DNA from: a virus
Virus record (IMG/VR): IMGVR_UViG_3300008952_000004
Span: 1 to 64,000 of that record
Length of the DNA stretch: 64,000 bases
Direction: 5' to 3' (one strand)
Shown: piece after piece, positions 8,677-19,062 of the stretch
Position numbering within the stretch: the first letter of the stretch is position 1
Layout of the letters: every line of letters starts with the position of its first letter
Notes under the pieces: generated by a model
Told to the model about the DNA's origin: nothing
The model's database searches: none
Seen by the model: only the letters and a program-made list of their open reading frames with translations
Translations under genes and position numbers: made by a program

Positions 8677-8800
8677 ACTTAACAGGGATACTCTTTCCTG
8701 CTATAACTAATAGTGTAGATCTACTCACTGCGTGTTGCAGCACGTGCCAAAATATTCAGGCTTATTAAGTCAACGCACTGGTTTATTCTTTTAATGGGTG

Positions 8801-8828
8801 TTGACTAGTTTCGGGCTATTATTAAAAT
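8801..8828 (+). promoter_or_regulatory. Candidate sigma70-type promoter in the 8677-8877 gap
   Basis: TTGACT at 8801-8806 and TAAAAT at 8823-8828, 16 nt apart, would start transcription about 45 nt before the ATG at 8878. The rest of this 201-nt gap holds a weak hairpin (CAGGGA...TTCCTG, near 8684) and no ORF or tRNA that I can see. Confidence 0.5.
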
Positions 8829-15498: not shown

Positions 15499-15867
15499 TT
15501 GACTTGGAAAAGTAAAAAGAAACTTTATGGTTCAAATCCTGAGTATAGTGTCGTAAGAAAACTTCGAAAGGACGGCAAGTCTAATGAGCAGTTAGAACTT
15601 ATGATAGGCGCCTTGAGTTTGGAAGAACTGATTGCCCTTAAACTAGATCTTGCCACAAAAGCAACAGGCGGCAAAATGTATGGATTCCCATTATGGTATT
15701 CGGTACCAGAGATATGTCGTGCTGCTGTATTAAAATACACTCTGTCAGCAGCTAGGACTAAGATGGAAGCTGCGAGATTTTTAGGTATCAATACAGAATA
15801 TCTGTACCGTTTGATAAAAAAATATGGTACAGATACATTTTTTAGCGAAAAAGAGCTTGACAAATGA
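15499..15867 (+). CDS. Helix-turn-helix (Fis-like) DNA-binding protein
   Basis: A 122-residue protein. The last 50 residues form a HTH: LKYTLSAARTKMEAARFLGINTEYLYRLIKKYG, close in pattern to the Fis-type C-terminal HTH (x-x-K-x-x-A-A-x-x-L-G-I-x-x-x-x-L-Y-R-x-I-K-K). The middle (LSLEELIALKLDLATKATGGKMYGFPLW) resembles a conserved segment seen in T4-like marine phages. A TTG start at 15499 is chosen because AGAAGG lies 11 nt upstream. It may regulate transcription; targets are unknown. The stop overlaps the -35 region of a candidate promoter for the RNA genes downstream. Confidence 0.7.
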   Translation: MTWKSKKKLYGSNPEYSVVRKLRKDGKSNEQLELMIGALSLEELIALKLDLATKATGGKMYGFPLWYSVPEICRAAVLKYTLSAARTKMEAARFLGINTEYLYRLIKKYGTDTFFSEKELDK

Positions 15868-15885
15868 GTATTGTGCTGTTAGTAT
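15857..15885 (+). promoter_or_regulatory. Candidate promoter upstream of the RNA genes
   Basis: TTGACA at 15857-15862 and TAGTAT at 15880-15885 are 17 nt apart. The -35 overlaps the end of the HTH gene. It could drive the structured RNA and the tmRNA. Confidence 0.4.
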
Positions 15886-15961: not shown

Positions 15962-15980
15962 TTGAGAGTAAGACCTGCGC

Positions 15981-16132
15981 CTGTGGGGGTGCTAAACGTG
16001 GGAAAAGAAATTAATACAATGGACTTTACACCCTTCAATGGTTCTCGAATGAAGGTGGCTACACTGGAGCCAGTTAAAAGGAACCTAGCCTTATTGGAGC
16101 GAAGATCCAATCCCCTCCACAGTTTTTGTTCT
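15981..16132 (+). ncRNA. Unidentified structured RNA upstream of the tmRNA
   Basis: No convincing gene lies between 15868 and 16141. Bases 15981-15991 pair with 16112-16122 (eleven positions, one mismatch, one G-U), closing a multibranch fold. Inside are hairpins at 16029-16037/16050-16057 (one bulge), 16056-16060/16068-16072 (TGGCT/AGCCA) and 16093-16098/16106-16111 (ATTGGA/TCCAAT). The last stacks directly on the closing stem. TTTTTGTTCTTT (16123-16134) follows, as at an RNA 3' end. It lacks the hallmark bases of 4.5S RNA, RNase P RNA and 6S RNA that I know. I infer a small phage RNA of about 140-165 nt, processed with or separately from the tmRNA. Confidence 0.55.
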
Positions 16133-16141
16133 TTACAGTAT

Positions 16142-16449
16142 GGGGGCGAACTGGTATCGACAGTGTGCCGAAAATTATTTGTGCAAGGCTGTGTGAGTGT
16201 ACACAGTAAAAACACTCAACTTTTTAACTGCAAACGATAACGTTGAAGTTGATTACGCCTTAGCTGCGTAATCTGGGGAAGCCATTCCTTATTAATCAAA
16301 ATGGCATATTGGGATTCCTACTTCCTTATAAGGTAGGTGGTTAGCGGGGGCATGTAGAGTTTGTCAGAGTACATAAACTGACTAACCTTGTGAATGACAA
16401 ATAAATGGAAACATATTGGACCGGGGTTCGACTCCCCGCGCCTCCACCA
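16142..16449 (+). ncRNA. ssrA: tmRNA (transfer-messenger RNA), tag ANDNVEVDYALAA
   Basis: This is a complete one-piece tmRNA of 308 nt. The 5' end GGGGGCG (16142-16148) pairs with CGCCTCC (16439-16445), including the conserved third-position G-U. A T arm (CGGGG TTCGACT CCCCG) and encoded ACCA (16446-16449) end it. The 5' side has the tmRNA D-loop-like CTGGTATCGACAG. The tag frame starts at GCA 16230 and stops at TAA 16269-16271, giving ANDNVEVDYALAA, which ends in the YALAA degradation signal used by proteobacteria. It rescues stalled ribosomes with SmpB (presumably the host's) and tags the products for proteolysis. It suggests the phage supports translation quality control or host-mRNA clearance late in infection. 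Confidence 0.96.
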
Positions 16450-18280: not shown

Positions 18281-19062
18281 TATCTAATTATAGCATTTAA
18301 AAAAACATTGACAATTCTAGAAGCTGCGTGAGTTTCAATTGTTCTATTAATAAATGCGCGCATTGCTTTATAGTTAGGAGAAATTGCAATTTCTGGGAAG
18401 TATCTTAATGTCGAGTGAATCATTCCCACCAACTCACCACGATGGTTAAGTATCGGAGAACCGGAGCTACCACCAAATGCGGGAATAGAATATATGGCAA
18501 CGTTGCGCTTATCAATGCCGTTGTAATATCCTGAAAAAATAGGCACCATATTATCTGAGTGAACGCCTAACGGCGCAGCCATATTAAAAACTTTGTCACC
18601 TGGGACGGGATGCCTTGGCGAAATTGTTAGCGCTGGTTCAAAAAGATTATCGACCCAGAGCATACACATATCATTTTTAAAATCCATATCAATAATTTCT
18701 ACCGGCAGTCGCTGTCCATCCAAGGTGATTACAGTGAAAGAAGATTTTATTTTAGTGTTCGGAGGCTGATCTCGCTTTATATGCTCGATGACATCGGAAT
18801 CATCACAAACATGTGCCGCAGTTAAAACATAAGCCCCCCAAAAGTTCGTTTTGACGACCGCCCCAGATCCAGAGGATCCAAGTCTCTGCTTACTACATTC
18901 CCCTTCGGACAAGCAACTTTCGACGATTATACTTTTTTCAATTTTTAGAAATGATTCTCTTTGAAGAATCTTCTTTTGGTAATTTAGGTTATTGTTGTGG
19001 GCACAGCTAGACGCAACTAAAAAAAATAAAAAACAAACAATTGTTCTTGATATTTTGTTCAC
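18280..19062 (-). CDS. Trypsin-like serine protease lipoprotein
   Basis: The only clear minus-strand gene. It encodes 260 residues: a hydrophobic signal ending in the lipobox VASSC (C20), then an S1-type protease domain. The triad is H84 (VLTAAHVC), D131 (NDMCML) and S200 in GGSSGSP. A GTG start is used with TTGGAGG upstream on its strand. The protein should be lipid-anchored outside the inner membrane and cut envelope or external proteins. In a phage this is unusual; possible roles are host-surface remodelling, exclusion or lysis support. The gene faces the small lipoprotein gene across a shared terminator, like an acquired accessory island. Confidence 0.9.
   Translation of the reverse strand: MNKISRTIVCFLFFLVASSCAHNNNLNYQKKILQRESFLKIEKSIIVESCLSEGECSKQRLGSSGSGAVVKTNFWGAYVLTAAHVCDDSDVIEHIKRDQPPNTKIKSSFTVITLDGQRLPVEIIDMDFKNDMCMLWVDNLFEPALTISPRHPVPGDKVFNMAAPLGVHSDNMVPIFSGYYNGIDKRNVAIYSIPAFGGSSGSPILNHRGELVGMIHSTLRYFPEIAISPNYKAMRAFINRTIETHAASRIVNVFLNAIIR

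Follow-up and report, generated by a model that had tools for sequence, protein, structure and literature searches.

Comparative analysis supports a pseudoknotted RNA with a conserved predicted fold in diverse uncultured large phages of the ocean

The stretch of DNA analyzed here, referred to below as the window, comprises 64,000 nucleotides of an IMG/VR virus record that contains 189,713 bases in total. Between an HTH gene and a tmRNA, the window contains a non-coding stretch for which an initial annotation had proposed a closed multi-branch RNA fold followed by a T-rich tail. The RNA has a length of approximately 110 to 160 nt and in the window corresponds to positions 15972–16122 plus a leader and a U-tail. 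The features of the locus are listed in Table 1. The structure model of the HTH protein obtained with AlphaFold2 had a mean pLDDT of 79.7, and its matches in PDB were nearly all to Fis, with E values of approximately 0.5 and above; the weak likeness of the predicted model to Fis is a lead, not an identification. A good match (E = 1.9e-8, 40% identity) was found to an unnamed viral model, A0A516LBV8.

Table 1 Features of the RNA locus in the window.
Feature	Position	Strand	Remarks
HTH gene, 122 aa	15499–15867	+	Usual 5' neighbor of the RNA; weakly Fis-like predicted fold
Sigma70-like promoter: TTGACA, 17 nt, TAGTAT	15857–15885	+	-35 element overlaps the end of the HTH gene
P0, 5' strand CCTGCG	15974–15979	+	Restricted to close relatives; forms a knot with P1 or excludes it
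P1 closing stem, 5' strand	15981–15989	+	Covariation in 9/9 pairs
P0, 3' strand CGTGGG	15997–16002	+	
P3 hairpin, CCTTCA/TGAAGG, loop of 12 nt	16032–16055 (16032–16037/16050–16055)	+	Letters nearly invariant
Pseudoknot strand 1, GGTTC	16040–16044	+	Inside P3 loop
P3b, optional hairpin	16056–16072	+	Seen in the sequence; variable part between P3 and pseudoknot strand 2
Pseudoknot strand 2, GAACC	16081–16085	+	A-rich GTTAAAAG 5' of the strand, TAG 3' of it
P4 hairpin, ATTGGA/TCCAAT, loop GCGAAGA	16093–16111 (16093–16098/16106–16111)	+	Covariation in 6/6 pairs
P1 closing stem, 3' strand	16114–16122	+	Pairs with 15981–15989
U-rich tail	16123–16134	+	
tmRNA, tag ANDNVEVDYALAA	16142–16449	+	ARAGORN and Rfam; downstream neighbor, outside the RNA

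The closed multi-branch fold was borne out by comparison with related sequences, and the T-rich tail is present after the closing stem. The closing stem itself had been drawn with 11 pairs; comparison supports nine, and the MFE structure also contains nine. The two outer members of the three inner hairpins described initially, P3 and P4, were found to be conserved, whereas the middle one, P3b, was not, the region between P3 and pseudoknot strand 2 ranging from absent to long across relatives. The earlier sketch had also missed both the pseudoknot and the interleaved helix P0. The loop of P4 follows a family consensus that, as judged by eye, is approximately NYGARRA.

The folding energy of the stretch was no better than that of shuffled sequences (z = -0.28; 66 of 200 shuffles folded as well), so that the window alone would provide a weak observation, and the evidence for the reality of the RNA is comparative, not energetic. 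With the HTH gene as query, seven viral-contig loci were obtained, five of which carry the stretch after the HTH gene, either before a tmRNA (L003, L004, L005) or without one (L006, L007); the stretch is absent from the remaining two (L008, L009). It was also found in four loci obtained with a PhoH-gene query (L016, L024, L025, L044). We constructed a covariance model, R1, from five relatives without the window, in which only P1, P3, and P4 are represented. Such a custom model had been suggested as a check by the initial annotation, and R1 matched the window at 15972–16122 with an E value of 5.4e-23 and had no other match at E ≤ 1 in the 64 kb. The match to the left-out window is an independent test of the finding. 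When applied to an additional 70 HTH loci, R1 identified 22 members at E < 1e-3, and 37 members at E < 0.005 were obtained among 50 chosen sources; two of its matches (L024 8834 and L217 5017) were judged to be due to chance and were dropped before preparation of a 38-row alignment.

Conservation of the helices was assessed in alignments of increasing size. A structure-blind MAFFT alignment of five relatives, with the window left out, was compared with a structure consisting of P0, P1, P3, the pseudoknot, and P4: 15 of 32 pairs were changed on both sides, 98.1% of cells were paired, and none of 500 shuffles had covariation as high, whereas the number of further pair types in this small set was not above that of shuffles (373/500). 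In the 38-row alignment, two-sided change was apparent for 21 of 25 pairs. The 44-row alignment, from which L301 was left out as nearly identical to L230, likewise shows change on both sides in 21 of 25 pairs, the kind of pair preservation in relatives for which the initial annotation had asked, and none of 500 shuffles was as high. In the 44 rows, 96.2% of cells pair, and the covariation score was 0.716, compared with 0.178 for shuffles and no more than 0.138 for slid partners. For P3, three of the five modeled pairs showed change on both sides. The 38- and 44-row alignments were fitted by cmsearch to the P1/P3/P4 model, which favors those helices and not the pseudoknot. All five pairs of the pseudoknot were nevertheless present in 38 of the 44 rows, even though the pseudoknot is contained in no model, and they occurred in eight letter combinations: GACTC/GAGTC, GGCTC/GAGCC, GGTTC/GAACC, GTCTC/GAGGC (four rows, including a G-U pair), GATTC/GAATC, GGCTT/AAGCC, GCCTA/TAGGC, and GCCTC/GAGGC.

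These alignments show a predicted fold in which the closing stem P1 encloses an H-type-like pseudoknot, formed by the P3 loop and a strand preceded by A-rich bases, together with the P4 hairpin and its purine-rich loop. Conserved letters are concentrated in hairpin P3 with its loop, in the A-rich strand, in the TAG that follows the pseudoknot, and in the loop of P4, whereas linker letters vary freely. The window RNA possesses the features by which membership was judged, namely P1, P3, the pseudoknot, and P4 with covariation. The covariation identifies the stretch as a genuine structured RNA. Helix P0 shows covariation in the five-row alignment and has support in approximately ten close relatives; in the window it contains two G-U pairs and singly was not above chance (p = 0.31), p values of ≤0.02 were obtained singly in 5 of the 44 members, all close relatives, and the helix was not seen in the more distant members of this set. 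Given that the 3' strand of P0 lies beyond the 5' strand of P1, with which it is interleaved, the two helices either form a second knot or are mutually exclusive.

Two further models were built for searches. R2, constructed from the 38 rows, of which only two (L221 and L291) belong to a divergent "type B" group, recovered members of this group that had first been spotted by eye, such as L005 (1.7e-10) and L213 (6.8e-7). R3, constructed from the 44 rows, detected one member in the genome of the window, with an E value of 2.3e-20 for a sequence that is itself among the R3 rows. R3 missed two members recognized by eye (L176 and L178) and matched another, L161, only at E = 0.26, so that absences by R3 are weak. 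Matches to R3 were obtained in 18 of 31 records, and the other 13 had none at E ≤ 0.01, including the two (G039, with L176, and G040, with L178) that on visual inspection resemble members. Even phages that bear the HTH gene do not all carry the RNA. In a tmRNA search of 23 long records, 18 passed the cut-off. Simple patterns were less selective. The pattern AGTTAAAAGGARYCTA was present in 50 stretches, four of which were members by eye (L102, L114, and L137, which repeat contigs already in the set, and L126, which was new), and the remaining 46 were attributed by eye to chance. Matches to P3 patterns (52 and 22 stretches) were not all members, many of them having no pseudoknot partner.

Across 274 bacterial genomes of one class, R3 at E ≤ 0.001 matched only L221, a 15-kb phage-like contig of a MAG, and G194; the latter match was taken as a false positive, given that it falls inside a reading frame that looks like one for a Tex-like protein. 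The chromosome of a WOR-3 MAG (CP070664.1; L222 and L223) carries two HTH homologs, one of them with the RNA and a tmRNA, and this locus represents either a prophage or a phage sequence that was incorporated into the MAG during assembly. A blastn search of 50,697 phage records with three RNA members revealed no relative, yielding short chance matches with E values of about 1 or more, and a tblastn search of the same records with three HTH proteins yielded no match. The nearest PhoH protein in that collection showed 37.6% identity, so that the lineage is without a close representative there. According to the alignments, the predicted fold is kept across many uncultured bacterial viruses while its letters change.

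At gathering score, Rfam 15 returned only tmRNA, tRNA, and an overlapping match to RF04321 (permuted tmRNA), and permissive scans revealed nothing else credible. The initial designation "unknown structured RNA" is thus strongly supported, both by the failure of gathering and of permissive thresholds to assign an Rfam family and by compensatory change throughout. None of the papers listed in literature searches describes such an RNA, as judged from titles and the openings of abstracts. Protein coding was rejected: a fully open sense frame is present in only 4 of the 44 members and an open antisense frame in 14, in two phases, and the distance from P3 to the pseudoknot occurs in all three phases rather than in multiples of three. 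The stems are conserved and a reading frame is not, the opposite of what the initial annotation had named as grounds for refutation. A Shine-Dalgarno decoy, AAAAGGAG, was also considered and was dropped because its sequence is not conserved, reading AAAAGGAACC in the window and AAACGAGCC in L184.

With regard to genomic neighbors, an HTH homolog lies upstream of the RNA in 31 of the 44 members, and the RNA gene that comes next, within a limit of 160 nt, is a tmRNA for 15 members and a tRNA for 5, with the other 24 having neither. The proximity to tmRNA noted initially holds for the window, in which the tmRNA begins 19 nt after the closing stem, but it is not the defining context. Of 13 records in which the RNA does not adjoin an HTH gene, the three longest were found to contain this gene at another site. 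In these three (G003, G004, and G007), the HTH gene adjoins the tmRNA and the RNA is located 34 to 44 kb away, and in G015 the HTH gene and tmRNA are together (L034) and the RNA is elsewhere. Two members 153 kb apart were detected in G031, one (8681–8823) at the HTH-tmRNA position and the other (161782–161923) beside another gene. G037 also has two (18622–18761 and 149835–149993), of which the 18.6-kb copy was recognized by eye and had a model E value of only 0.26. Downstream genes differ between members, and no protein partner was adjacent in all of the contexts compared. The RNA is not part of the tmRNA, given that a tmRNA follows in only those 15 members and that the RNA is far from the HTH-tmRNA pair in three genomes. 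In L027 (5968–6011), the HTH gene and tmRNA adjoin without the RNA and, by eye, a promoter-like sequence is still present at the HTH stop codon; a unit of promoter and tmRNA may therefore have either gained the RNA by insertion or lost it.

Promoters were scored as TTGACA with at least 5 of 6 matches, a gap of 16 to 18 nt, and TATAAT with at least 4 of 6 matches, no more than 130 nt upstream. After omission of L256, for which upstream sequence was lacking, a sigma70-like promoter was found in 27 of 43 members, compared with 4.1 expected from first-order shuffles, and, for several members, approximately 10 nt or less separates the end of the -10 element from the first position of the model. Of the promoter-like elements noted initially, that at 15857–15885 was confirmed, its position being conserved among relatives. 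The other 16 members, most of them distant from the HTH gene, lack a strong promoter over these 130 nt, and some of them may be cut from longer transcripts. The 12-nt tails after P1 contain 280 T in the 44 members, compared with 152 expected.

Several other features of these regions were apparent. The sequence GTTCTTT, located at 16128–16134 just 5' of the tmRNA and also present in L003, L005, L143, L150, L016, L272, and L242, is conserved while the letters of the RNA itself change; we take it to resemble a boxA antitermination site. Between the promoter and the RNA, a Shine-Dalgarno-like sequence is followed by an ATG and, within two to eight codons, a stop in L003, L005, L006, L007, L213, L214 (by eye only), L221, and L257. 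A script found this arrangement in 12 of 43 members, compared with 3.5 expected, with some of the 12 possibly falling in the end of the HTH gene. An element CCTANGGGTGGA...GGNTGGG occurs in leaders at L160 3533 (the same contig as L005), L166 968, and L015 11620 (minus strand), and is possibly another structured RNA; in L160 it precedes a gene whose beginning resembles that of the tubulin-like gene in L006 (a weak PhuZ match).

We consider there to be an even chance that the stretch encodes a small, independently transcribed, trans-acting phage RNA that is probably bound by protein. Host RNA polymerase would transcribe it from its own sigma70-like promoter; in the window, it would probably be co-transcribed with the tmRNA and released from it by subsequent processing. 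It would act in trans, given that its genomic place changes and its fold does not; the changing neighbors, the HTH-tmRNA pairs without the RNA, and the two copies in G031 argue for a free-standing trans-acting gene. The clustering of conserved letters in the P3 loop, A-rich strand, TAG, and P4 loop suggests, as the most likely step, a putative protein-binding surface, through which one phage or host protein might be bound, with the RNA serving as a scaffold, cofactor, or decoy. The earlier proposal that it may be a phage regulatory RNA is plausible.

Other explanations account for parts of the same data. The RNA might act in cis as a leader of the stable RNA that follows it, controlling through processing or attenuation the tmRNA or tRNA output from the promoter at the HTH stop codon. 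Its position before a tmRNA or tRNA in 20 of the 44 members, the gap of only 19 nt in the window, the GTTCTTT sequence in several relatives, and the possibility that interleaved P0 and P1 alternate are consistent with such a role, which we regard as unlikely given the 24 members with neither RNA nearby and the HTH-tmRNA pairs that have no such RNA between them, with the RNA tens of kilobases away. A leader with a constant downstream gene is likewise not compatible with these counts. Different downstream genes also speak against a riboswitch or attenuator that senses a small molecule; the combination of an H-type-like pseudoknot and an A-rich strand is reminiscent of small aptamers, and a U-tract follows P1, and we nonetheless hold this explanation to be very improbable.

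Nearly invariant unpaired bases in a compact pseudoknotted fold that often adjoins stable RNAs in need of trimming speak for a putative ribozyme, such as a self-cleaving RNA that frees itself or its neighbor, but the RNA matches no Rfam ribozyme family and we judge this possibility improbable. There is similarly little likelihood that it is a putative small RNA with an antisense action on mRNA of the phage or host: it has the U-rich 3' end common to many Hfq-bound small RNAs, whereas its linker letters vary freely, its conserved P3 loop is already engaged by the pseudoknot, and its P4 loop is short. A permuted or degenerate tmRNA piece is virtually untenable and already largely refuted. The match to RF04321 at 16069–16271 scored 60 bits, above the gathering score of 47 bits, and CCCCTCCAC resembles an acceptor strand, but the part upstream of the tmRNA alone scored only 14.3 bits, the supposed acceptor strand covaries with its own 5' partner in P1 across relatives, and a complete one-piece tmRNA follows. 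RF04321 passes gathering mostly by reuse of the tmRNA's own 5' half, and this match would mislead automatic annotation.

Returning to a trans-acting, probably protein-bound RNA, we tentatively propose, with somewhat less than even confidence, an undescribed class of virus-encoded, independently transcribed pseudoknotted RNAs of diverse uncultured large phages, sometimes present as two paralogs, whose action in trans would be directed at a conserved component of the bacterial cells that are infected. To our knowledge, few phage RNAs beyond tRNAs and tmRNAs are kept by selection on shape. With 44 aligned members, strong covariation, changing neighbors, and two copies in at least one genome, the RNA provides a concrete starting point for studying what uses phages make of non-coding RNA, in that it can be searched for with a model and its mutants can be defined. 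Its newness is that of an RNA family that matches no family searched; a new mode of action is not claimed.

Among known systems, RNA C and RNA D of T4 are unassigned small stable RNAs from the stable-RNA region of a large phage and may be analogous to the window RNA, as the initial annotation had suggested. The tmRNA and permuted tmRNA families (RF00023 and RF04321) correspond to the neighboring gene and to the partial, misleading match, respectively; unlike RF04321, the window RNA has a P1 that covaries with its own partner, and its upstream part is below the gathering score. The manA and wcaG motifs, as described in PMC2864571, are structured RNAs of marine origin, in part phage-borne, that were discovered by comparative genomics and are presumed to be cis elements of metabolic genes, whereas the window RNA changes neighbors and matches no Rfam family. 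It also has no match to the Rfam families of GOLLD and ROOL, which are described in PMC12286853 as RNAs of phages or prophages with complex folds, an unknown function, and frequently a location close to tRNA genes. On that account, the window RNA is like GOLLD and ROOL in its phage origin and complex fold, and it is far shorter than GOLLD, many members of which exceed 800 nt.
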